Assembly: GCA_016180645.1 (NCBI GenBank)
Contig: JACPAV010000045.1
Coordinates: 1-10,439, forward strand
Reading direction: 5' to 3'
From: Nitrospirota bacterium
GTDB taxonomy: Bacteria; JACPQY01
Length of the DNA stretch: 10,439 nucleotides
The position numbers and the translations under genes are program-made. How positions within the stretch are numbered: position 1 is the stretch's first letter; each line of letters begins with the position of its first letter. Shown one piece after another: positions 106-10,300 of the stretch. The notes under the pieces were generated by a model that was not told the origin of the DNA, did no database searches, and was given only the letters and a program-made list of their open reading frames with translations.

Positions 106-215
106 GGGGTCAAGTCTTGACTTGATACTACTTGGCGGCGATGCGAGCGGGCGTGATTCAATGAAATGATCCTTCTATTACTCACAGTCCATATGCTATT
201 GCAAGACCTGACCCC
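106..215. mobile_element. Small inverted-repeat element (MITE-like or RAYT/IS200-related remnant)
   Basis: The left end GGGGTCAAGTCTTG (106-119) and the right end CAAGACCTGACCCC (202-215) are inverted repeats matching at 13 of 14 positions, about 82 bp apart. The interior is less GC-rich than its surroundings and has no long reading frame of its own. From general knowledge, GGGGTCA(A/G)GTCTTG ends occur beside IS200-like and REP-associated tyrosine transposase genes in many environmental genomes; I cannot search to confirm. No target duplication is obvious. The element separates the broken SpsF-like gene from the giant gene and contains the giant gene's start codon at 166. Confidence 0.6.
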
Positions 216-3200
216 CGGCACTGTTGAAGGAGAAGGTGGGGGTGAACTTCGCCTCCCGAAGGTGGATCTCTACCCCGTGCGCGATCCGGAGGGCAAGCCC
301 GTGGATTCCCAGCCTCTCGCTCCGGGCGCTTCGACGACCACGTTCGACTTCCTCAATACGCTTGGCCATCGGCTCCCCGAAGGACTCCTCGACGTTACCG
401 TGACTCTGGCCGATCGCGCTGAACCCCACGGCAACACTCGGTCGGTCTCCGACCGCTTCATTGTGGATCTCTCGGGACCCATCGTCTCTCCAACACCGGA
501 GCACCAAGCTTCCATGCCCAACCGAAACGGCAGGGAAAATCCCGTCCCTGCGCAACTCGTCGTCCACGCCGTGGATGTGCCGCGTCTGCCCATAGGCCAC
601 GCCGGCGTCCGGTCCGAAACCCTCACGCTGAACCTCCGCCACGCGGAAAGCGCCAGAGCCTACACCTACACCGCGCTGCCTCAGTTCCAAGACGCTCCGG
701 TCATAGTCTACCCCTTCACCCCCGGCCCGGCAGGGGACTTCGTGGCGACCCTCCTCGAATCCCAACGCAACGAAACCCAATACCCCGACGGCCACTACAC
801 ATGGACCACCACCGTGAGGGACCGGCTCCTGAACACCACCACCTCAACCTTCAACTTCTGCCTCGACCGCGCCGCCCCCACGCTCACGAATTTCAACATC
901 GGAAGCCCCATCGACTACCCCGCGTACAGCCTCCTGTTCATCCCCTCGCTCCAACCGATCGTCACCTACAACTGTGAAGACCGCTTCCCGACATCTCCCT
1001 CATGTGGCATGGCGAAGCTCGAAGTTGTCGCCACCCGCACCCACACCGCTCCGATCTTCGGAAGCGACGACCCCGTGGCGATTCCTTCGAGCCAACTCAC
1101 GCCCGTCCGGATCGAGATCGAGCCGACCCTGTGCGACGGGCTGGATCACTCATTCCAATTCACTCAGAGTCTAGGGCAGGAAGGGATCTGGACGTTCGAC
1201 TTGGAGGCTTTGGACAAGGCCCAAAACAAGACCGTTCTCCCCGCGGGGAACAGCTACTATCTGGACGTCACGCCTCCCTTCACCCTCCCGGATGGCCTTC
1301 TTCTCCTCCATGCCGGCGAGGGCCTCCAGCCGGTTTCCACGGTTGGCTTGCCCACGAATGACAGTAGACTTCGTCTTGGGGTGTGGTACACGAACGGTTT
1401 CAGCGGGGTGAATCCGGCCACGGTGGTCTTCAGCAATTCCGGGAGCAGCGCGGGCTGCACCGGCGCATTGGCCCTCTTATCGGCGGGTTCTCACTCAGCG
1501 CTCTCGAAGGATTTCCTCCCGTGCGAAGGGACGAACACCGCGAGCGTCTTCCTGCGCGACAAGGCCGGCAACCCCTTCACGGACTCCATCACCTACACCA
1601 CCGATTACACCCCTCCCGCCCTCACCGACATGACCATGACCTCGATTTCCATCTGCGTGAGCTGGAATGCGCTCGGCGGGTGTACCGCTTCGGCGCCGGG
1701 CGAGCGATTCAGCGCCCACGCCACGGACAACCTCTCCGGCGTGCACAAGGTGGAACTCCTGCTTGGATCGACGCGAAAGGCGTTCGTCCGCCTCGGCGGC
1801 GCCGCGGGAGACGACTACTCGATCGACATCTTCCAGACCGAATACGACGCCGCCTCCGACGTCCGCATCCAGGCCTGGGACAAGGCCGCCAACATGGCCG
1901 AAGCCCGCCAGATCGGCCCCGCCGGCGGCACCGTCAGCACCCGCAACGGCGGGATCCAGCTTGCCATCCCGGCCGGCTCGACCAGTTCCAAAACCTTCAT
2001 CGGAGTCACCTCCGTCAGCGAAAACCAGCTCGCGGAGATTTTGGGCTACAACCCCTTTGACGAAGCTACGGCAGGGAGCCATCTCACTCTGTTGAACTAC
2101 GAAGGGATGACCCTGAGCGGAGATCCTGGGACGACCTTCAGCCTACCCCCGAACAGCACCATCGGCTGCAAGAAGGATAATGCCCCCCAGGGCGAGCAGA
2201 TGTTCATGGTCGATTTCCTGGAGCCCAACCACCGGTATGACAACGAAGGGCGCGTACGCGTCCTTGCGGGAGTGAAACTTGATGAGTTCGATTACTCTGG
2301 CGGTAACACGTATTACAAACCTCTCGACATCTCCGACTGCCCTGGTCTGTCCGAGATCCATCACGCCGTCGCCTGCGTCAGCCTCAGCACGGACCACGGG
2401 AAGACGCAACTGGTCCATGGGCAGGTCAGGACATCCGGAGCCGAAATTAAGGGGCAGGTGGTGGTCGTCGATTCCAAGGAAACCACGTATGCCGATTTCA
2501 CGAAACCCAGGCTGGATTCGGAACGGCTCCAACCACCGTCGCGAAGGGTCTGGGGGTCGGCGAAGCATTTCGGCATTCAAGGCACCGCCGATGCGAACGG
2601 CCTTGCCAAGTATTGCATCCCCACTCCGGCGGAAAACGATACGAAGGCATACGCGGCCGGAGATACCGGCGCCTTTTTCAAGGACAATGGCATCGGTCTC
2701 GATCGCGTCCGCATCGCCATCGGCACGGACGGATGCGACGTGACGGTTCCGGTGACGCCTCCGAATCCGGGGAACGTCATCGCCGCGGGAACCTGCGAGG
2801 CGAAGTACATCGAGGCAGGCGGCGCCTGCGAAAACGTCCCCATCGTCCCGCCCTCCGTCAACGGCGGTCCGCCCGACTCGCTCAATCTTGCCTCGGAGAC
2901 ATACGGCGACCCGCAGTTCGCGATTTCAGGCCGGAACGGCATCGCCGGGATCACCGTGCACGTCGATCTGCGCGGGAAAGTCCCCAGTCCCCCGGGCTCC
3001 AAACTGGACCTCTTCGTCCGCAACGCAACCAGCACCGGCAAGATCCCGGACACGTTCACGAACGACACGGGCAGACAATTCTACGTCTTCCACCCCTTGG
3101 ACGTGGCGGGCTTCTCCGCCGGTGCGATTGCGATGGACAACCCCAAACTCTACTTCAATACCCGCCTGCGCCGGGACCTCTTCGCCCCGAACGCCTGCCG

Positions 3201-5571
3201 CGTCTTCGGCCGGATGGCCACGCAGAAAATCATCCCGGCGGAACTTCCCAGTCAAACCGAGACCTACGCCAATGTCTTCGGCGGAGTTGAAGGACCGAGT
3301 ACGTTTTCGGGCTTCAGCGACGAAGATGAGCGATGCACGCCGAGTCCGCCCAAGTCCGTCCCCGCCTCCAATGTGTGCTATTCCGCCTTGGAACAGGGCT
3401 GTAGGAAGGGTATTGCCGATTGGCGGCCTTGGGAGGACTTCTACGCCAATGCGGACCCCAACACGTGCCGTCCTTCGATCCGACAGCACAAGTTGATGCT
3501 CATGAAACGAGCGGGGATCAACACCGTGCGCATCGACGTGCCGTGGGGGATCGTCCAGGAATTTTCCGCCCCTGTATACAACTTCGAGAAGCAGAGGTAC
3601 CATTTGGATGCGTATATGACGATGGCGGGGGCGTACAACATGGAGATCGAGGCGGACTTCGGAGGTTGGCCGTGGTGGGGATCCTCCTGCTGCATTTCGG
3701 GGGACACTGAAGAGACGTGCGTGAGGCGCACCGCCCGGCTCACCGCCTGCGGAACGGATTGTGAGGTCGATCCCGCCCTGATTGAGGAACCCCATAAGAA
3801 GTGCTGTGCGGACAAGAAGCGCGCACAAGATCCGGCATGCGACTTTGCCTGTCTCCAAAATGAACTCGACTCCCGAGGCTGGCTCCGGACCGGCCAGTGT
3901 GTTCCGGGGGGCGTCACTTCGCTCAACCCCGAGGTCCAGCCGGACTACGCGATGTTCAAGAACTTTGTGAGAGCGACGGTTGAGGAATTCGCTCCCGGGG
4001 GCAAGCTTGCCCAGAGGCATCCGAACCTGCCCGGGATCGGAATTCGGAACTGGGGACTCGGCAATGAAATCGAGAATCCCCGCAATTTCCTGCGGATCCG
4101 CCCGGACCCGGCCTCGGTGAACGACAAGGACCACCCCGGCCTCCAGTCCTACGTGGGGCTGAAGGAATACAAGCAGCTCATCAAGCAGCTCCACGATCTC
4201 ATCCGGGTCGAACTCAATCACCCGGACCACCGGATTCATGGCGGGGGACCCAACGTCACGGCGAGGATCAGCCAAGATTGTGACTACTACGGGGACGAGG
4301 TCTCCAAGGATCGTCGCCCGAACGGTCACATCGAAATGGCCGATCTTGCCGAGCGCTGCCACGAGCAGGTCAGCATCGAGCATATCTACCAAGTGTTCCG
4401 AGACCCTAGAGTTGAAGGATATTCGCTCAACGATCCCACCTTCGACGGGGGCGTGGTGGTGAATTTCCACTGGTACCAGGAGGAGGGTCCGAATCCCAAT
4501 GCCAACGAGAGGGGGGGGCGCCAAAGGCAGGCCGACGTCCTGCGTACGTTGACGTGCATGTTCCCGAACCGCCCGATCTGGTCGAACGAGGGAGGCATTT
4601 GCGATCAGGAGTGGGCCTTGGCCCGTCTCGCGGAGGACCCAGGCGCGGACTTGCGCGAATGCATTCCCCAGTTCAATCCGGCCCCGTCGGCACTCGCCCA
4701 AGCCGGATACTTGGTGGGTGTGAGCAGCTACCTGGGACCGCGTTATTGGCCTGGCGACTGTTCAAAGGTGTATGGCACCTTCACGTGCACTTCCCAGGCG
4801 GGATTCGAGGGGCCATGCCCGTGCCCGGTTGAGAAGACTTGCGAGGGCCTCACCGATCTCCCCACCACCGGCGTGTCCGGGAACTTTGAGAAACTCTTCT
4901 GGTACCGCCCGGCGGACGGAGGGGGGGGGCTATTTGGACTCGGCGAGAGCGCCGGGGAACCGGCCACGCTCACCCTCCGCCCCGTCTACCACGCCATCAG
5001 CCCCGTGTCCGACGTGCCCATCCTGTTTGGGGTAGAAATGCCGTTCCGAACGGGAATCGACCGGAAATATGCGAGGGCGCGGGCGAATTTTTCCGCTTTC
5101 CTGAAAGCCGGGCAGAGAGTCGCCGTGACCGCCACGGGGAAGAACCTCTCCACGGGGTTGGAGAATCGCAACCTCGGTTTCGGAACGTTCGTGGAGAACA
5201 GCGCTGGGGAGACCGTGGGCGTCATCTGGCACAAGGAGAACGACCCTGAACTGTACCCCCACATCAACGAAGGAACGTTCCAGGCGTTCTCCGATGGGAC
5301 GTATACCTTCGTCATCATTCCCCACAAACTCTACGTCCCGACGGAATTGGAGACGAGTGATTCCGTCAACCATCCTGACATTTTACTGACTCCCGAGAAT
5401 ACCCTAAGCCTCTTGGAAGACCCGGACAAGGATGGTATCCGTACATTGAAGACAGCAGACCAGAGAACGAAAGTATTGAGAGCTGCCGAAGGTGCCTACG
5501 TGGAGGGCGTGATTCGATTCACGCTGATTGGCACCTCAGGTGCTCCTCCGCGAGTTGCCTGGGCACCGTAG
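166..5571 (+). CDS. Giant secreted multidomain glycoside hydrolase (clan GH-A) with Ig-like, ZU5-like and C-terminal B domains
   Basis: This 1801-residue protein probably hydrolyses an extracellular polysaccharide. Domains in order: about four or five Ig-like repeats (residues 20-585) with recurring D-x-TPP or D-x-AAP ends and DKAxN turns; a ZU5-like domain from about 584 (GPAGGTVST, then IQLAIPAGS); a beta-rich region (930-1040) with a relic copy at the far right of the window; a TIM barrel (about 1090-1600); and domain B (about 1605-1801). Barrel evidence: GINTVRIDVPWG (beta-1), GLGNEIE with Glu1301 as likely acid/base, FHWY (beta-6), and WSNEGG with Glu1475 as likely nucleophile. A barrel insertion (1175-1245) holds ten Cys. 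DPDKDG (1752-1757) resembles a calcium loop. No Shine-Dalgarno sequence precedes ATG166, and the short hydrophobic N-terminus lacks basic residues. The start lies in an inserted element, so the original N-terminus is probably lost. The exact GH family and substrate are unknown. Confidence 0.8.
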   Translation: MILLLLTVHMLLQDLTPGTVEGEGGGELRLPKVDLYPVRDPEGKPVDSQPLAPGASTTTFDFLNTLGHRLPEGLLDVTVTLADRAEPHGNTRSVSDRFIVDLSGPIVSPTPEHQASMPNRNGRENPVPAQLVVHAVDVPRLPIGHAGVRSETLTLNLRHAESARAYTYTALPQFQDAPVIVYPFTPGPAGDFVATLLESQRNETQYPDGHYTWTTTVRDRLLNTTTSTFNFCLDRAAPTLTNFNIGSPIDYPAYSLLFIPSLQPIVTYNCEDRFPTSPSCGMAKLEVVATRTHTAPIFGSDDPVAIPSSQLTPVRIEIEPTLCDGLDHSFQFTQSLGQEGIWTFDLEALDKAQNKTVLPAGNSYYLDVTPPFTLPDGLLLLHAGEGLQPVSTVGLPTNDSRLRLGVWYTNGFSGVNPATVVFSNSGSSAGCTGALALLSAGSHSALSKDFLPCEGTNTASVFLRDKAGNPFTDSITYTTDYTPPALTDMTMTSISICVSWNALGGCTASAPGERFSAHATDNLSGVHKVELLLGSTRKAFVRLGGAAGDDYSIDIFQTEYDAASDVRIQAWDKAANMAEARQIGPAGGTVSTRNGGIQLAIPAGSTSSKTFIGVTSVSENQLAEILGYNPFDEATAGSHLTLLNYEGMTLSGDPGTTFSLPPNSTIGCKKDNAPQGEQMFMVDFLEPNHRYDNEGRVRVLAGVKLDEFDYSGGNTYYKPLDISDCPGLSEIHHAVACVSLSTDHGKTQLVHGQVRTSGAEIKGQVVVVDSKETTYADFTKPRLDSERLQPPSRRVWGSAKHFGIQGTADANGLAKYCIPTPAENDTKAYAAGDTGAFFKDNGIGLDRVRIAIGTDGCDVTVPVTPPNPGNVIAAGTCEAKYIEAGGACENVPIVPPSVNGGPPDSLNLASETYGDPQFAISGRNGIAGITVHVDLRGKVPSPPGSKLDLFVRNATSTGKIPDTFTNDTGRQFYVFHPLDVAGFSAGAIAMDNPKLYFNTRLRRDLFAPNACRVFGRMATQKIIPAELPSQTETYANVFGGVEGPSTFSGFSDEDERCTPSPPKSVPASNVCYSALEQGCRKGIADWRPWEDFYANADPNTCRPSIRQHKLMLMKRAGINTVRIDVPWGIVQEFSAPVYNFEKQRYHLDAYMTMAGAYNMEIEADFGGWPWWGSSCCISGDTEETCVRRTARLTACGTDCEVDPALIEEPHKKCCADKKRAQDPACDFACLQNELDSRGWLRTGQCVPGGVTSLNPEVQPDYAMFKNFVRATVEEFAPGGKLAQRHPNLPGIGIRNWGLGNEIENPRNFLRIRPDPASVNDKDHPGLQSYVGLKEYKQLIKQLHDLIRVELNHPDHRIHGGGPNVTARISQDCDYYGDEVSKDRRPNGHIEMADLAERCHEQVSIEHIYQVFRDPRVEGYSLNDPTFDGGVVVNFHWYQEEGPNPNANERGGRQRQADVLRTLTCMFPNRPIWSNEGGICDQEWALARLAEDPGADLRECIPQFNPAPSALAQAGYLVGVSSYLGPRYWPGDCSKVYGTFTCTSQAGFEGPCPCPVEKTCEGLTDLPTTGVSGNFEKLFWYRPADGGGGLFGLGESAGEPATLTLRPVYHAISPVSDVPILFGVEMPFRTGIDRKYARARANFSAFLKAGQRVAVTATGKNLSTGLENRNLGFGTFVENSAGETVGVIWHKENDPELYPHINEGTFQAFSDGTYTFVIIPHKLYVPTELETSDSVNHPDILLTPENTLSLLEDPDKDGIRTLKTADQRTKVLRAAEGAYVEGVIRFTLIGTSGAPPRVAWAP
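3025..3281 (+). repeat. Giant-gene segment duplicated at 10003-10259
   Basis: This segment encodes residues 954-1039 of the giant protein, including KIPDTFTNDTGRQFYVF and RRDLFAPNACRVFGRM. It aligns without gaps to 10003-10259, with about 26 differences in 257 bp counted by eye. It lies just upstream of the glycosidase barrel and probably forms a beta-sandwich accessory domain. Confidence 0.9.
4511..4518 (+). repeat. G8 homopolymer inside the glycosidase domain
   Basis: Eight G in a row within the codons for Arg-Gly-Gly in the giant gene, between the beta-6 and beta-7 motifs of the barrel. Gain or loss of one base would end the protein early. Confidence 0.85.
4921..4929 (+). repeat. G9 homopolymer near the end of the glycosidase domain
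   Basis: Nine G in a row encode three of the four consecutive glycines in ADGGGGLFG of the giant gene, shortly after the FWYRP strand of the barrel. It is the longest homopolymer I noticed in the window and the frame is intact as given. Tracts of this length can slip during replication. Confidence 0.85.
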
Positions 5572-5585
5572 TCACCTCCAAGCCG

Positions 5586-6746
5586 ATGCATCGCGAGGGG
5601 GCAATTCTAGTGATCTTCTGCGTGGGGATCGGAGCTTTCGCCTGTGATGGCGAAACGGGAAATGAGGTGGCTATCGACAGCCCTGGCACGGAGGACGATA
5701 CTGCAACCGACAGCACCCTTCCTCAGGAAAAGCCTCTCATCGAGAAGCCTCTGATCGAAGTTTCGGATTCAGCCCGCGCCACGCTGAGCGCTCTTGCCGG
5801 CAGGAAATGGTCTTTTACTGTCGGGACAGGATCGGTTCCTCCGCATCCGAGCGGGGACAAATTCCTTGGACCCGATGCGAGGACATACTGGCTCTCGCGT
5901 TTTTCGCAGGCGGCCATGTATGAGAGTTGTCGGGCGAAATGGAAGGCTGGTAGTCGTCCAGACCTTGATTGTTCCAATCTCGATCTAGATGACTGGATCG
6001 ACAGGCTCTGGATCTTGGTCAGTACGGACGGCCAGTTTTTCAGCAAAATTCACCTTGTTACGAATCAAACGTACTGGTCTCGAACGCAAGCCGTGACTCC
6101 CGGTGGCCATCACGTCCGGCTCTACCTTGAGACCGAGGGCAGGATTACGACGCTGCTCTCCAAGAAAGACAACTTCGTCGAGTTCTATTCCGGGGAGGCA
6201 GGATCAGACGGGAGACGTGCCTGCCTCCCCCCTTCTTCCCTCGAAGGGGTAGGCCCCGGCAACTCCGAAGAGTGTAGCACCGACATCGCCCCCGTGACCT
6301 TCCTCGCGCCTGACGCCTCGCGCCTTGCGTCCATACGCCCCCGCGACCCTAATGTTACCATGAATGACGCGGGGGTGTATGTAATGACCTGGGACAACCG
6401 CCCCGCCACGGACGACTACTACAGCACTTGCCCCGTGTGGCCGGCCCAGGTTACTGTTCCTGCCAGCCGCACCTTCGGATTGGCCTTCAGCGTGGACGGC
6501 CTCAACTGGACGGTCGTCTCCAATGACTTGACGCTTCAGGGGATACCTGTCGTCTACGACACAAAGCCCAATACCCGTTATAGCCAGCTCACCGGCAAGC
6601 TCCGCCACGTCGTCCCGGTGTTCATCACCAACGAGCAACTCCGGATCTACTTCACGGCGGAGGCCGTGAGCCGCTGTCAGGGCAACTGCCCCGGGATCGA
6701 TACCGACCTCACCTCCTGCTCCACCGCCACCGCCATCAGCAATTGA
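5586..6746 (+). CDS. Lipoprotein A1, beta-propeller glycosidase-like; the intact A paralogue
   Basis: A 386-residue predicted lipoprotein. Its signal peptide starts MHREG, has a hydrophobic core and ends GAFAC, so Cys20 would be lipidated. Asp follows the Cys; in E. coli that favours inner-membrane retention, but the rule may not apply here. Motifs resembling five-bladed beta-propeller glycosidases (GH43/GH32-like) follow: GHHVRLYLETEG (about 174-185), a DPNVTMNDAGVYVMTWDN strand (about 254-271), an Asp-box-like FSVDGLNW (about 301-308) and LRIYFTAE near the end. The fold is inferred from this pattern and no catalytic residues are assigned. The gene starts 14 bp after the giant gene, without a clear Shine-Dalgarno sequence, and its stop overlaps the B1 start as TGATG. 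It is the only A copy with an unbroken 3' end (STATAISN) and so serves as reference for the family. Confidence 0.75.
   Translation: MHREGAILVIFCVGIGAFACDGETGNEVAIDSPGTEDDTATDSTLPQEKPLIEKPLIEVSDSARATLSALAGRKWSFTVGTGSVPPHPSGDKFLGPDARTYWLSRFSQAAMYESCRAKWKAGSRPDLDCSNLDLDDWIDRLWILVSTDGQFFSKIHLVTNQTYWSRTQAVTPGGHHVRLYLETEGRITTLLSKKDNFVEFYSGEAGSDGRRACLPPSSLEGVGPGNSEECSTDIAPVTFLAPDASRLASIRPRDPNVTMNDAGVYVMTWDNRPATDDYYSTCPVWPAQVTVPASRTFGLAFSVDGLNWTVVSNDLTLQGIPVVYDTKPNTRYSQLTGKLRHVVPVFITNEQLRIYFTAEAVSRCQGNCPGIDTDLTSCSTATAISN
6303..6337 (+). repeat. Degenerate heptamer array in A1
   Basis: About five consecutive 7-bp units fit a loose CT(C/G/T)(G/A)CGC pattern, starting at 6303, 6310, 6317, 6324 and 6331; the last fits poorly. 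They encode the stretch before RPRDPN. A2 and A3 carry short tandem repeats at the same protein position. Confidence 0.5.
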
Positions 6747-7462
6747 TGTATCTTCTCCTGCTCCTCGCACTCATCGCTCAGCACTCGGCACGCAGCACTT
6801 CCGTGGGCATCAGCGCGTGCGCGAGGCTGTTGGATATCGGGTGCCGGGCTCCCGATGGGATCGGGACGGACTGTTACGATCCGTGCCGTGATGCGGATAA
6901 CAAGGCCGCTTGCCGCGAGAAGTACCGCCCCGTGGCGGAGGCCGTGTACGGGGCCTGCCCGGACGCATCCCAAGTGAAGGTGTACTGCAACAACCGGAAC
7001 GACGTGGACGACACGGGGATGTGCACCGATCCGGCCCAGGAGCGTCCCGGGATGCCCTTCGCCATCAACGCCGCCCCCCTGGATGAGCAAGGAAACACCT
7101 TGGAGGACTACTCGTGCAATGGGTTCAACAACGGTTGCGGGGTCTTCGCCACCGGCCACGGAGACGGCAACGTCATGACCTTCACCCCCCCCTCGGGGGA
7201 TAACTTCGGCTCCCGCCGCTACTCCTTCGCCATCGTCCCCCAAAAACTCTACGTCCCGACGGAGACGCAATTCAGCGACACCTTGAGCCTCTTCGAAGAT
7301 CCTGACCAAGATGGAGTGCAAACACTCAAGGAGCCACCGGAGAGGCTCCAACTCGTCCTTGAGAAGGCTGAGGGTGCATATGTCGAAGGCGTGATCCGAT
7401 TCGAGGAAGTCCCTGCACCCTCGCAGGTCATTGCGCGGAGGCCAAGGTTACGTGCACCGTAG
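6746..7462 (+). CDS. B1, small exported Cys-rich protein with the C-terminal domain of the giant enzyme
   Basis: A 238-residue protein. ATG6746 overlaps the A1 stop (TGATG), indicating translational coupling; an in-frame TTG lies one codon upstream, but ATG fits better. A leucine-rich signal-like segment (MYLLLLLALIAQ) begins the protein. The next part is encoded by a heptamer array, then comes a region with ten Cys in total, many presumably in disulfides. The C-terminal part is homologous to the giant protein's end: FAIVPQKLYVPTE, an EDPDQDG loop (about 184-190, calcium-loop-like) and EGAYVEGVIRF, ending in RAP. The giant protein has IIPHKLYVPTE, EDPDKDG and the same EGAYVEGVIRF. B1 could therefore be a free-standing version of that domain or a shrunken derivative of a giant gene. 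No enzyme motif is seen and the function is unknown. A C8 run (7185-7192) lies within it. Confidence 0.7.
   Translation: MYLLLLLALIAQHSARSTSVGISACARLLDIGCRAPDGIGTDCYDPCRDADNKAACREKYRPVAEAVYGACPDASQVKVYCNNRNDVDDTGMCTDPAQERPGMPFAINAAPLDEQGNTLEDYSCNGFNNGCGVFATGHGDGNVMTFTPPSGDNFGSRRYSFAIVPQKLYVPTETQFSDTLSLFEDPDQDGVQTLKEPPERLQLVLEKAEGAYVEGVIRFEEVPAPSQVIARRPRLRAP
6767..6801 (+). repeat. Heptamer array, consensus GCACTCA, at the 5' end of B1
   Basis: Five 7-bp units start at 6767, 6774, 6781, 6788 and 6795. The first is a perfect GCACTCA and the others differ by one or two bases. The array encodes the end of the signal-like segment (AQHSARSTS), eight codons after the ATG. Seven is not a multiple of three, so any copy-number change shifts the frame. 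Confidence 0.75.
7001..7264 (+). repeat. B1 copy of a DNA block shared with B2
   Basis: The block runs from GACGTGGACG to the sequence encoding LYVPTE and matches B2 at 8476-8724. It includes a 79-bp stretch that is identical by eye (7052-7130 against 8527-8605). A short middle part differs in length and sequence. Confidence 0.85.
7437..7441 (+). promoter_or_regulatory. Ribosome binding site of A2, inside the 3' end of B1
   Basis: GGAGG lies 10 nt before GTG7452. It is the best Shine-Dalgarno match for A2 and supports GTG7452 over the TTG at 7431, which lies upstream of this site. A3 has the equivalent GGAGG at 8927-8931. Confidence 0.6.
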
Positions 7463-8561
7463 GGGTTCTGTCTTTCGCATTTCAGCAATCGCCGCCTTAG
7501 TCTTCGGCGCATGTAGCGACGATCTTGAGACCGAGATTGTAATTCCTGATTCTGCGCACCTTTCTTTCGATCAGCTATTGGATAAGCAGTGGCAGTTCTC
7601 TCTTCCCGCCACGGAATCGGTCAAGCCTCAGACTTTCATGGGGAATGCTCCGTGGAGGCAGGTAAGGGAGGTTGGAACCGGTTGCGCCAGAGATCCCGAC
7701 ACGGTTCCAGTCGCGAACAGTTCATCAACAGCGCCTAGAGTCTTCTACTATTCGGACAATGTTGGAACCCAGCAATTGACCGTTCTCGCCCTGCCCGACG
7801 ACACGTTTCGGGCTTACATGATTGGTTGGAACAAGCAGCAGGCGGAGGGGGCGAAATGTTGCTCGGTGGAAATGGATGTCTGGACAGTCCTCACGACAGA
7901 CCCTTCAAGCTACAAGAACTGGTCATCCCCAGAGAGGCTCTTGGGGAACTTCCCCTGGTCCCTCACCGCCGCCTTGACTCCCGGCTCCCACCACGTTCGG
8001 CTGTACTTGGAGACCGAGGGCAAGATCCAAACCATGATTTCCGAAAAAGACAACTTTGTGAAGTTCCACTCCGAATCCTCCCCCTCTTTCCTCTCGACTG
8101 ACGGCTCACGACTCACGGACTTACGCCCCCGAGATCCAAATATCACGGTCAACGATCTCGGGGTCTATGTAATGACCTGGGACAACCGCCCGGCGACGGA
8201 GGACTACGCCCCCGGCGGGAAGAAGGACGCGACCGCCGTCGCCAGGAATTTTGGCTTGGCTTTCAGCGTGGACGGCCTCAACTGGACGGTCGTGAGCAAC
8301 GAACTCTACCCGGATCTACTTCACCACCTCCGAGAGCCGCGGCACCATCTGCAAAGGCTCCCCCGGTGCCTCCTCCTGCTCCACCGCCACCGCCGTGAGC
8401 AATTGAATGTTTCTCCTGTCGCTTCAACTCTCCTTCCTGCTCCTCACGACTCGCGGGTTACGACTCACGATTCCCGACGTGGACGACACGGGGATGTGCG
8501 GGTCTTCCGCCGAGGAACGCCAGACCATGCCCTTCGCCATCAACGCCGCCCCCCTGGATGA
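7452..8561 (+). CDS. Lipoprotein A2, paralogue of A1 with frameshifted 3' end
   Basis: Starting at GTG7452 (11 bp inside the end of B1, after GGAGG), the protein begins MHRRGSVFR, has a hydrophobic core and reaches a lipobox-like FGAC with Cys21. The region after the Cys is not alignable to A1 or A3 by eye. Family motifs then appear: SHHVRLYLETEG, a DPNITVNDLGVYVMTWDN strand and the Asp-box-like FSVDGLNW. After SNELY (base 8309) the frame is wrong: it reads LLHHLREP and continues to 8561 across the B2 start. A one-base skip there would give RIYFTTSE and the proper family end at 8406, directly before the B2 ATG. Relative to A3, 81 bp are missing at this spot. As written, the protein has a scrambled tail, so it is a decaying or switched-off copy. 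Confidence 0.6.
   Translation: MHRRGSVFRISAIAALVFGACSDDLETEIVIPDSAHLSFDQLLDKQWQFSLPATESVKPQTFMGNAPWRQVREVGTGCARDPDTVPVANSSSTAPRVFYYSDNVGTQQLTVLALPDDTFRAYMIGWNKQQAEGAKCCSVEMDVWTVLTTDPSSYKNWSSPERLLGNFPWSLTAALTPGSHHVRLYLETEGKIQTMISEKDNFVKFHSESSPSFLSTDGSRLTDLRPRDPNITVNDLGVYVMTWDNRPATEDYAPGGKKDATAVARNFGLAFSVDGLNWTVVSNELYPDLLHHLREPRHHLQRLPRCLLLLHRHRREQLNVSPVASTLLPAPHDSRVTTHDSRRGRHGDVRVFRRGTPDHALRHQRRPPG
8098..8125 (+). repeat. Heptamer array, consensus CTCACGR, in A2
   Basis: Units start at 8098, 8105 and 8112, with a fourth offset by one base at 8120. The units at 8105 and 8112 differ only in the last base. They encode the residues just before RPRDPN, the same place as the A1 array. Confidence 0.65.
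8127..8310 (+). repeat. A2 copy of a near-identical block shared with A3
   Basis: 184 bp aligned without gaps to 9572-9755, with three mismatches counted by eye. It encodes PRDPN through SNELY. It starts right after the tandem repeats and ends at the shared frameshift. Confidence 0.9.
8310..8406 (+). other. Frameshift and deletion site in A2, with displaced family tail
   Basis: After GAACTCTAC (8301-8309), base 8310 is one base too many. From 8311 the +1 frame reads RIYFTTSESRGTICKG and ends STATAVSN-stop at 8406, matching the A1 end STATAISN. An 81-bp stretch present in A3 (about 9756-9836) is absent here. Confidence 0.8.
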
Positions 8562-8952
8562 GCAAGGAAACACCTTGGAGGACTACTCGTGCAATGGGTT
8601 CAACAGCGGGTGCGGGGTGTACTCCGTTGCCCACGGAGACGGCAACGTCATGACCTTCACCGCCCCCGAATCCCGCCGCTACTCCTTCGCCATCGTCCCC
8701 CAAAAACTCTACGTCCCGACGGAGGGGGTGACGAAACCATTTTTTGACAAGATAAACAATGATAACCAAACGAACCTCGAGAATAGGCTTTCTTTGATCC
8801 CGCCCGACCCGGCTCATCCCGGGCTGTCCGATATTGTGAATGCTCAGGTGCTCCAATTCTCCGAAGGTGCTTACGTGGAAGGTGTAATCCGCTTCGAAGT
8901 GGTGCCTCCACCAACTCAAATCGCCCGGAGGCCGAATGCTCGAGCTCCGTAG
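8407..8952 (+). CDS. B2, short B paralogue lacking most of the Cys-rich part
   Basis: A 181-residue protein. ATG8407 follows directly on the displaced A2 family stop (TGAATG). It opens with a hydrophobic signal-like segment (MFLLSLQLSFLLL), continues into residues encoded by a heptamer array, and then joins B1-like sequence at DVDDTGMC. The Cys-rich segment of B1 before that point is absent, leaving only three Cys. FAIVPQKLYVPTE and EGAYVEGVIRF are conserved with B1 and the giant protein, and the end is again RAP. Between these motifs lies a variable stretch that lacks the DPDxDG loop of the other copies and is encoded by an unusually AT-rich patch (about 8738-8795). It is probably exported. 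Function is unknown; it may be an accessory or a degenerating copy. Confidence 0.65.
   Translation: MFLLSLQLSFLLLTTRGLRLTIPDVDDTGMCGSSAEERQTMPFAINAAPLDEQGNTLEDYSCNGFNSGCGVYSVAHGDGNVMTFTAPESRRYSFAIVPQKLYVPTEGVTKPFFDKINNDNQTNLENRLSLIPPDPAHPGLSDIVNAQVLQFSEGAYVEGVIRFEVVPPPTQIARRPNARAP
8443..8477 (+). repeat. Heptamer array, consensus CTCACGA, at the 5' end of B2
   Basis: Five 7-bp units start at 8443, 8450, 8457, 8464 and 8471. Those at 8443 and 8464 are perfect CTCACGA; the others differ by two bases. It occupies the same place as the GCACTCA array of B1, just after the hydrophobic segment, but has a different unit. It ends where B1-like sequence resumes (8476). Confidence 0.75.
8476..8724 (+). 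repeat. B2 copy of the block shared with B1
   Basis: Matches B1 at 7001-7264, including the 79-bp block identical by eye. Downstream sequence diverges completely until EGAYVEGVIRF. Confidence 0.85.
8927..8931 (+). promoter_or_regulatory. Possible ribosome binding site of A3
   Basis: GGAGG within the last codons of B2, equivalent to the A2 site. Spacing to ATG8936 is only 4 nt, shorter than ideal, so the A3 start or its strength is less certain. Confidence 0.4.
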
Positions 8953-10300
8953 GGTTCGTTCGCTCGCGCTGGCCTCTCTGCTGATAGGGATCGCGGATTC
9001 CTGCGGAGACGGTCGTGTGGAATTACTCGTTTCCATTCCTGATTCTGCCCCTGAAAACTTGAGTGGGCTCCTTAACAAATCTTGGACGTTCTCCTACGAA
9101 GACAAGCCAGGCCAAACAGCACCAAATCGCAGCGAGAGTATGGAGTTCGTCCCAAGGCGATCACCCTCTTGTGGTCCTTCACAAGGTGGTTCAATCTATC
9201 TTCAGATGCCCGACGGCACAAGGCGGGTCTATCGGACGACCAATCCCGGAGGCATTTGCTTGTCAAACCAAGGGCCGACCGTGTTTGACCCTAAGGCTTG
9301 TCCTTCAACAGATGCCCCGGAGGCAATATGGACGGGTATTAAGTCCGATCAGAAAGGCATTGACGAAGCAAGCAAAATCTCCGACGCCTTCCCCTGGTCC
9401 CTCACTGCGGCCTTGACTCCCGGTGGCCATCACGTTCGGCTATACTTGGAAACCGAAGGAAAGATCAACACGATGCTTTCCAAGATCGACAACTTCACGG
9501 AGTTCCAGAACCGCGACGTCGGCCCCGTCTCCTTCTTCGACCTCACGGGTTCACGGGTTCACGGGATCACGCCCCGAGATCCAAATATCACGGTCAACGA
9601 TCTCGGGGTCTATGCCATGACCTGGGACAACCGCCCGGCGACGGAGGACTACGCTCCCGGCGGGAAGAAGGACGCGACCGCCGTCGCCAGGAATTTTGGC
9701 TTGGCTTTCAGCGTGGACGGCCTCAACTGGACGGTCGTGAGCAACGAACTCTACCGACCAGAGCGGCATCTCCTGTCTCGTTTCCCGCGGGGGCATCCGT
9801 CACGTCGTTCCGGTCTTCCTGACGAACGATCAGCTCCGGATCTACTTCACCACCTCCGAGAGCCGCGGCACCATCTGCAAAGGCTCCCCCGGCGCCACCT
9901 CCTGCTCCACCGCCACCGCCATCAGCAATTGATGGCCATCCTCCCGCTCGCCTCCATCCTCGCATTGTCAACCCCCATGTCTGACCCTCGGGTCTCCGAA
10001 ATGCAACCAGCAGCGACAAGATCCCGGATACGTTCACGAACGATCTGGGCAGACAGTTCTACGTCTTCCACCCCTTGGACGTGGCGGGCTTCTCCGCCGG
10101 TGCGGTTGCGATGCCGGACCCCAAGCTTCACTTCAACACCCGCCTGCGCCGGGATCTCTTCGCCCCGAACGCCTGCCATGTCTTCGGCCGGATGGCGTCG
10201 CAGAAAGTCATCCCGGCGGTGCTTCCCAACCAAACCGAGACCTACGCCAATGTCTTCGGAGTCACGGGGTCAGACATTTGTATCTGGACAATCTGGGTGA
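8936..10300 (+). CDS. Lipoprotein A3, frameshifted, read through into the remnant of a third B gene
   Basis: ATG8936 lies 17 bp inside B2. The product starts MLELRRVRS, has a hydrophobic core and a weak lipobox (ADSC, Cys23). After a region unlike A1 and A2 come GHHVRLYLETEG, a DPNITVNDLGVYAMTWDN strand and FSVDGLNW. After SNELY (base 9754) one extra C puts the frame out. In the +1 frame the family sequence goes on: DQSGISCLVSRGG, IRHVVPVFLTNDQLRIYF and the end STATAISN-stop at 9932. Unshifted, the frame instead runs through HLREP-type out-of-frame sequence, enters the ATG at 9932 of the next gene by chance in the same frame, and stops at 10300. The natural gene is therefore 8936-9932 with a frameshift, and residues after about 273 are unlikely to be functional. 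Confidence 0.55.
   Translation: MLELRRVRSLALASLLIGIADSCGDGRVELLVSIPDSAPENLSGLLNKSWTFSYEDKPGQTAPNRSESMEFVPRRSPSCGPSQGGSIYLQMPDGTRRVYRTTNPGGICLSNQGPTVFDPKACPSTDAPEAIWTGIKSDQKGIDEASKISDAFPWSLTAALTPGGHHVRLYLETEGKINTMLSKIDNFTEFQNRDVGPVSFFDLTGSRVHGITPRDPNITVNDLGVYAMTWDNRPATEDYAPGGKKDATAVARNFGLAFSVDGLNWTVVSNELYRPERHLLSRFPRGHPSRRSGLPDERSAPDLLHHLREPRHHLQRLPRRHLLLHRHRHQQLMAILPLASILALSTPMSDPRVSEMQPAATRSRIRSRTIWADSSTSSTPWTWRASPPVRLRCRTPSFTSTPACAGISSPRTPAMSSAGWRRRKSSRRCFPTKPRPTPMSSESRGQTFVSGQSG
9543..9571 (+). repeat. Octamer tandem repeat TCACGGGT in A3
   Basis: Three 8-bp units start at 9543, 9551 and 9559 (the third with one mismatch), followed by a partial TCACG. They sit just before the PRDPN codons, where A1 and A2 have heptamer arrays. 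Confidence 0.8.
9572..9755 (+). repeat. A3 copy of the near-identical block shared with A2
   Basis: Ungapped match to 8127-8310 with three mismatches in 184 bp by eye. It is bounded on the left by tandem repeats and on the right by the extra C. Confidence 0.9.
9755..9932 (+). other. Frameshift site in A3 and displaced family tail
   Basis: TAC C GAC (9752-9758) contains one base more than the A1-like TAC GAC. Skipping base 9755 restores the family C-terminus to the stop at 9930-9932, which overlaps the next ATG as TGATG. Confidence 0.8.
9932..10002 (+). pseudogene. Start of a third B-type gene (B3), truncated
   Basis: ATG9932 overlaps the family stop of A3 exactly as B1 does with A1. It encodes a signal-like segment (MAILPLASILALSTPM) comparable to the leucine-rich starts of B1 and B2. 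After about 23 codons the sequence abruptly becomes the giant-gene relic starting at 10003, in a different frame. No B domain follows in the window, so this is a truncated gene start. Confidence 0.6.
10003..10259 (+). pseudogene. Relic of a second giant glycosidase gene
   Basis: An ungapped 257-bp match to 3025-3281 of the giant gene at about 90% identity. Its frame encodes KIPDTFTNDLGRQFYVF and RRDLFAPNACHVFGRM. Several differences change residues in a moderate way (RVF to HVF, TQKII to SQKVI) and no gaps occur, so this looks like a once-functional diverged paralogue. It joins the B3 start out of frame on the left and is cut on the right six bases before a GGGGTCA element end. The piece covers only a beta-rich domain, without catalytic residues. 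Its frame stays open to 10335, but that tail is element sequence. Confidence 0.8.

Follow-up and report, generated by a model that had tools for sequence, protein, structure and literature searches.

The closest described systems to the locus reported here are recombining tandem arrays of surface-protein genes, such as the antigenic-variation loci vlsE and pilE (review: PMC4534519), the staphylococcal lpl (DUF576) arrays of tandem lipoproteins, and the polymorphic toxin/immunity cassettes CDI, Rhs and MafB. The locus resembles vlsE and pilE in its conserved scaffold, its divergent segments and the gene-conversion-like homogenization of neighboring copies; homogenized flanks beside divergent segments, as in antigenic variation by gene conversion, are found in it. 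It is unlike them in that its divergent segment spans two different genes and that no archive of silent donors was found (a genome-wide search gave no A or Big copies besides those of the contig itself); its one named relative is a groundwater MAG. Like the lpl arrays, it holds lipoprotein-like paralogues arranged head to tail, with parts that are constant and parts that vary; however, its lipoprotein-like gene (A) has no Pfam match and alternates with genes for large secreted proteins (Big). As in the toxin cassettes, a large secreted-protein gene has a variable 3' end that adjoins a variable downstream partner, but here the tail, about 70 aa long, has a conserved motif and lacks a toxin domain, and its downstream partner is a long gene conserved in its second half. 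To our knowledge, surface-variation loci all vary one single gene; a bounded segment over one gene's end and the next gene's start would point to a coupled interface.

Organization of the array

The window is the complete contig JACPAV010000045.1 (10,439 bp), seen whole, of the genome of an uncultured Nitrospirota bacterium (GCA_016180645.1; 4.72 Mb, 65 contigs, 97% complete). All evidence on the array comes from this one MAG contig, in one genome of its species, so the deletions and the frameshift described below may be assembly errors. The sole same-phylum comparison genome (G001; Nitrospirae groundwater MAG record, JACPQY010000055.1) shares its family with the window genome and belongs to a different genus.

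The locus order is Big1-A1-B1-A2-B2-A3-B3 fragment (Table 1). The initial annotation described an alternating A/B series; its repeats were recovered in place and at the same identities, but the B genes do not form a family of their own. B1 and B2 align with the C-terminal end of Big1 (residues 1702-1789), and in B3, after A3, a start is followed by a copy of Big1 residues 951-1040 at 89% DNA identity. Because B1 and B2 match the C-terminus and B3 copies the interior, the repeat unit is Big followed by A, with the Big copies shrunken after the first, and B1, B2 and the broken B3 are internally deleted copies of the upstream Big gene. Big1 may itself be truncated, its 5' end lying inside an inverted REP pair. 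G001 shows the same arrangement: its contig ends inside an A gene, whose 3' part is followed by two other ORFs, then Big and then another A. In the window, the A1 stop and the B1 start overlap in a TGATG, as do the A3 stop and the next start; B2 begins at the first base past the A2 stop, and A2 and A3 each start before the preceding B gene (B1 and B2, respectively) has ended. These overlapping and adjoining starts and stops suggest translational coupling in the array.

Table 1. Positions of the genes, blocks, segments and repeats in the window
Feature	Position	Strand	Remarks
Inverted REP pair GGGGTCARRTCTTG	106-215 (106-119 +, 202-215 -)	.	surrounds Big1 start
Big1	166-5571	+	1801-aa ORF; Ig-like region, barrel weakly resembling GH clan A, C-terminal domain common to B1/B2
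Low-GC4 divergent segment, unit 1	5347-6089	+	Big1 tail and A1 head
A1	5586-6746	+	intact 386-aa lipoprotein-like gene; signal peptide, Cys then acidic/Gly residues
Degenerate period-7 array in A1	6302-6329	+	same protein position as A2 and A3 arrays
B1	6746-7462	+	signal peptide, Cys-rich segment, Big C-terminal domain
Homogenized block B1	7000-7264	+	partner 8475-8724; dS 0.18
Low-GC4 divergent segment, unit 2	7265-7948	+	B1 tail and A2 head
A2	7452-8406	+	A paralogue; frameshift at about 8303; lacks 81 bp found in A3
Degenerate period-7/14 array in A2	8091-8118	+	about 9 nt ahead of homogenized block
Homogenized block A2	8127-8406	+	partners 9572-9755 and 9836-9932
B2	8407-8952	+	signal peptide, Big C-terminal domain
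Homogenized block B2	8475-8724	+	partner 7000-7264
Low-GC4 divergent segment, unit 3	8725-9387	+	B2 tail and A3 head
A3	8936-9932	+	A paralogue; frameshift at about 9748; C-terminus in another frame, 9783-9929
Period-8 array in A3	9543-9571	+	ends at homogenized block edge
Homogenized block A3	9572-9932	+	partner 8127-8406
B3 remnant	9932-10259	+	signal-peptide-like start, then copy of Big1 3017-3281 (89%), cut at REP-like element

The family was not recognized at the outset, and profile searches of A and B gave none. For A, Pfam, NCBIfam and PADLOC yielded no family, solved structures no match, and phage and viral collections no relative; for B, none of the three family libraries matched and no solved-structure profile match was significant. 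A is an orphan family on present data, known from two genomes, because in 84,980 species genomes scanned with a pattern a relative turned up only in G001 and a profile search of 386 genomes placed only the window genome and G001 above chance. Weak matches in other genomes of the 386 (E 0.003-0.008) were at chance level and were rejected. On present data, the protein family is restricted to one poorly sampled phylum-level lineage, with no match in the libraries searched. AlphaFold models from four-row alignments (pLDDT 34 for A and 38 for B) were of no use. Big matched PF01301, tested for a GH35 or clan GH-A glycosidase, below the cut-off (E 0.007), a solved-structure search with Big gave no match, and no Pfam or NCBIfam toxin family was found in Big, B1 or B2. 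The G001 Big homologue carries an in-frame TGA (L018 4420-4422) inside the barrel-like domain, at a position that codes for Trp in the window.

Every A protein has a Cys after a hydrophobic stretch; the VSAC of G001 is canonical, and the AFAC, FGAC and ADSC of A1-A3 are non-canonical. A2 and A3 depart from the A profile at the same profile position, 275 (8306 and 9751), and the 81 bp missing from A2 correspond to A3 9755 to 9836. The lesion common to both was most likely copied along with their 98% block, since it is located at the end of that block. A2 and A3 look broken and the later units degenerate, though the frameshift may mean either dead genes or a sequencing or assembly error.

Recently homogenized blocks beside old segments

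The repeats first reported between the paralogues hold up. A2 and A3 share 184 nt at 98% identity (8127-8310 and 9572-9755), including a 100-nt exact run, and a further 97 nt at 96% (8310-8406 and 9836-9932). The 79-nt exact run of B1 and B2 (7052-7130 and 8527-8605) lies inside a longer block of about 85% identity, which holds a second exact run of 54 nt; when the 25 mismatched positions in the ungapped B block of 193 nt were shuffled, a run of 79 arose in none of 20,000 trials. Divergence along the paralogues, proposed beforehand as a test, is not uniform, with dS about 0.05-0.18 in the blocks and saturated between them. Between A2 and A3, dS is saturated in the head, 0.7-1.0 from the PWSL anchor to the period-7/8 array and 0-0.09 beyond, with about 0.05 for the 3' parts. 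Between B1 and B2, it is 0.18 through the KLYVPTE anchor and reaches saturation in the tail beyond, where dN is 0.45. One unit pair was thus recently homogenized on both flanks of an old segment. In all comparisons with G001, and between A1 and A2/A3 outside the recent blocks, dS is high or saturated throughout; the 'constant' blocks of A1 for that reason reflect protein constraint and not recent exchange. Recent homogenization is clear only for the A2/A3 3' parts and the B1/B2 middle.

The old segments are not unrelated, as had been supposed from A N-terminal halves that seemed not to align and from B1/B2 stretches that seemed to share nothing: protein anchors align throughout, and both the A heads and the B tails are homologous. 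The heads have 18-20% aa identity among window copies and up to 30% with the other genus (19% for A2 against A3, 29-30% for either against G001), with saturated dS, and are very old. A four-taxon test of the heads against an A2+A3 clade reached only p about 0.08, and the four-taxon topology tests gave no single ancestry for the modules.

A low-GC segment across the Big/B-A junction

In every unit, a low-GC segment of about 0.7 kb runs from the last approximately 70 codons of Big or B into the first approximately 165 codons of A. The initial annotation rightly saw the divergent parts as less GC-rich (52.6-57.4% against 62-65%), and the divergent segment is a composition-defined stretch in all three units. 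From the KLYVPTE to the PWSL anchor, fourfold-site GC is 0.53-0.60 in each of the three units, against 0.78-0.91 alongside and a genome background of 0.77. Each of the six half-modules shows the drop, with p from 2e-5 to 0.002; because the units are homologous, these cases are not fully independent. The G001 Big tail shows the drop as well (p 2.5e-4), and the G001 A head gives a non-significant p of 0.19. As a control, none of 71 close same-strand gene junctions in 514 kb of the window genome was spanned by a segment with a value of 0.60 or less or showed a 0.2 drop in either half.

In all four Big/B genes the changepoint is 12-33 nt away from the KLYVPTE anchor end (changepoint/anchor end: Big1 5358/5345, B1 7297/7264, B2 8736/8724, G001 5781/5763). 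On the A side the changepoints fall at 6113 for A1 (anchor 6090) and 9463 for A3 (anchor 9388); those of A2 and the G001 A gene are poorly located. There the composition edge, at the PWSL anchor, is about 180 bp from the edge of recent homogenization (8127/9572), and the two thus do not coincide in a single breakpoint. As silent sites are saturated between the homologous units, the module composition is probably maintained and not merely inherited.

Proposed history of the array

We propose, as somewhat more probable than its negation, an old tandem operon whose scaffold is under concerted evolution, with a two-gene module left out of homogenization and the later units decaying. The operon would consist of ancient paralogous pairs of a large secreted protein (Big) followed by the lipoprotein-like A. 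Later Big copies would have lost most of their interior, giving B1, B2 and B3, possibly by internal deletion at short repeats with decay following, and A2 and A3 share one frameshift. Recombination between units, by gene conversion or unequal crossing-over, would recently have homogenized the A2/A3 3' half and the B1/B2 middle, and the segment between the blocks, Big/B tail plus A head, would have retained its old divergence as a two-gene module set apart by its base composition. A functional link between tail and head is suggested by their adjacency and by the composition and edges that they share; the two may form a co-adapted interface in which the tail of Big docks on the head of A at the surface of the cell. 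The pattern suggests that the junction stretch of each pair is kept variable or swapped, and module exchange is possible. That the junction block of about 0.7 kb is exchanged or hyperdiversified as one, its two interacting ends changing together and both scaffolds being homogenized, we hold to be quite unlikely.

The dS pattern fits either segments swapped into a recent duplicate or converted flanks of old copies. Of the gene conversion or cassette exchange that had been read from the locus, recombination homogenizing a scaffold beside divergent segments is supported (dS about 0.05-0.18 against saturation). Active cassette exchange is a weaker candidate: the 97%-complete genome has no donor copies elsewhere, and equally old segments left in place while their flanks were converted give the identical pattern. 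An active system swapping the tail-head module between units or strains through the anchors KLYVPTE and PWSLTAALTPGGHHV, with paired new surface specificities, would account for module edges that fall on anchors of exact identity between copies (20 nt across Big1, B1 and B2; 18-22 nt in A), for the distinct composition of every module and for ancient modules between recently shared flanks; however, besides the missing donors, no two modules are recent copies of one another and A2 and A3 are frameshifted, and we consider it unlikely. An ordinary domain pair with no exchange is a real possibility, though short of an even chance; its silent sites would have drifted to the composition set by mutation, the flanks being kept GC-rich by GC-biased conversion or by selection on codons. 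Relaxed codon use, or a lack of GC-biased conversion, would suit the low GC of the module as well. The module fourfold sites use the four bases about equally, the ORF-free DNA of the genome has 51% GC (845 bp only), and GC-biased conversion is proposed for recombining bacterial genes in PMC4450053; the composition edges are, however, sharp, the tail is not fast-evolving as a protein (37-57% identity, EGAYVEGVIRF conserved), and the non-conserved N-terminal half of Big1 has high GC3.

Collapse or mis-joining of full-length Big-A units by the assembler is distinctly improbable: the contig does end near a repeat that is also close to the ends of other contigs, and the G001 contig likewise ends inside an A gene, but the longest exact repeat in the array, 100 nt, is resolvable by ordinary short reads, and B1 and B2 are open from start to stop and adjoin A stops (with overlap in B1). 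A diversity-generating retroelement was also considered and rejected; the genome has no RVT_1 match while control genomes matched, and the contig has no near-identical template repeat, its copies differing by many indels.

Small repeats and REP elements

Degenerate period-7/8 repeats are also present at 6767-6799 and at 8443-8474, the latter in B2, by eye just ahead of the block shared with B1. The window repeats resemble genome-wide (TCACGAC)n arrays (30 overlapping matches to the pattern, compared with 2 to the reversed control), among them a 109-bp near-perfect array on contig C58 (L041 7274-7382). The REP sequence GGGGTCARRTCTTG has 30 copies in the genome against 0 for the control, often as inverted pairs, and the binning of the window contig is supported by the REP sequences that it carries, which are of this genome's own type. 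Y1 transposase genes on contig C34 are flanked by two REP pairs. By eye, the B3 fragment is flanked by the similar inverted sequence ATGTCTGACCC / GGGTCAGACAT, at about 9978-9988 and 10268-10278.
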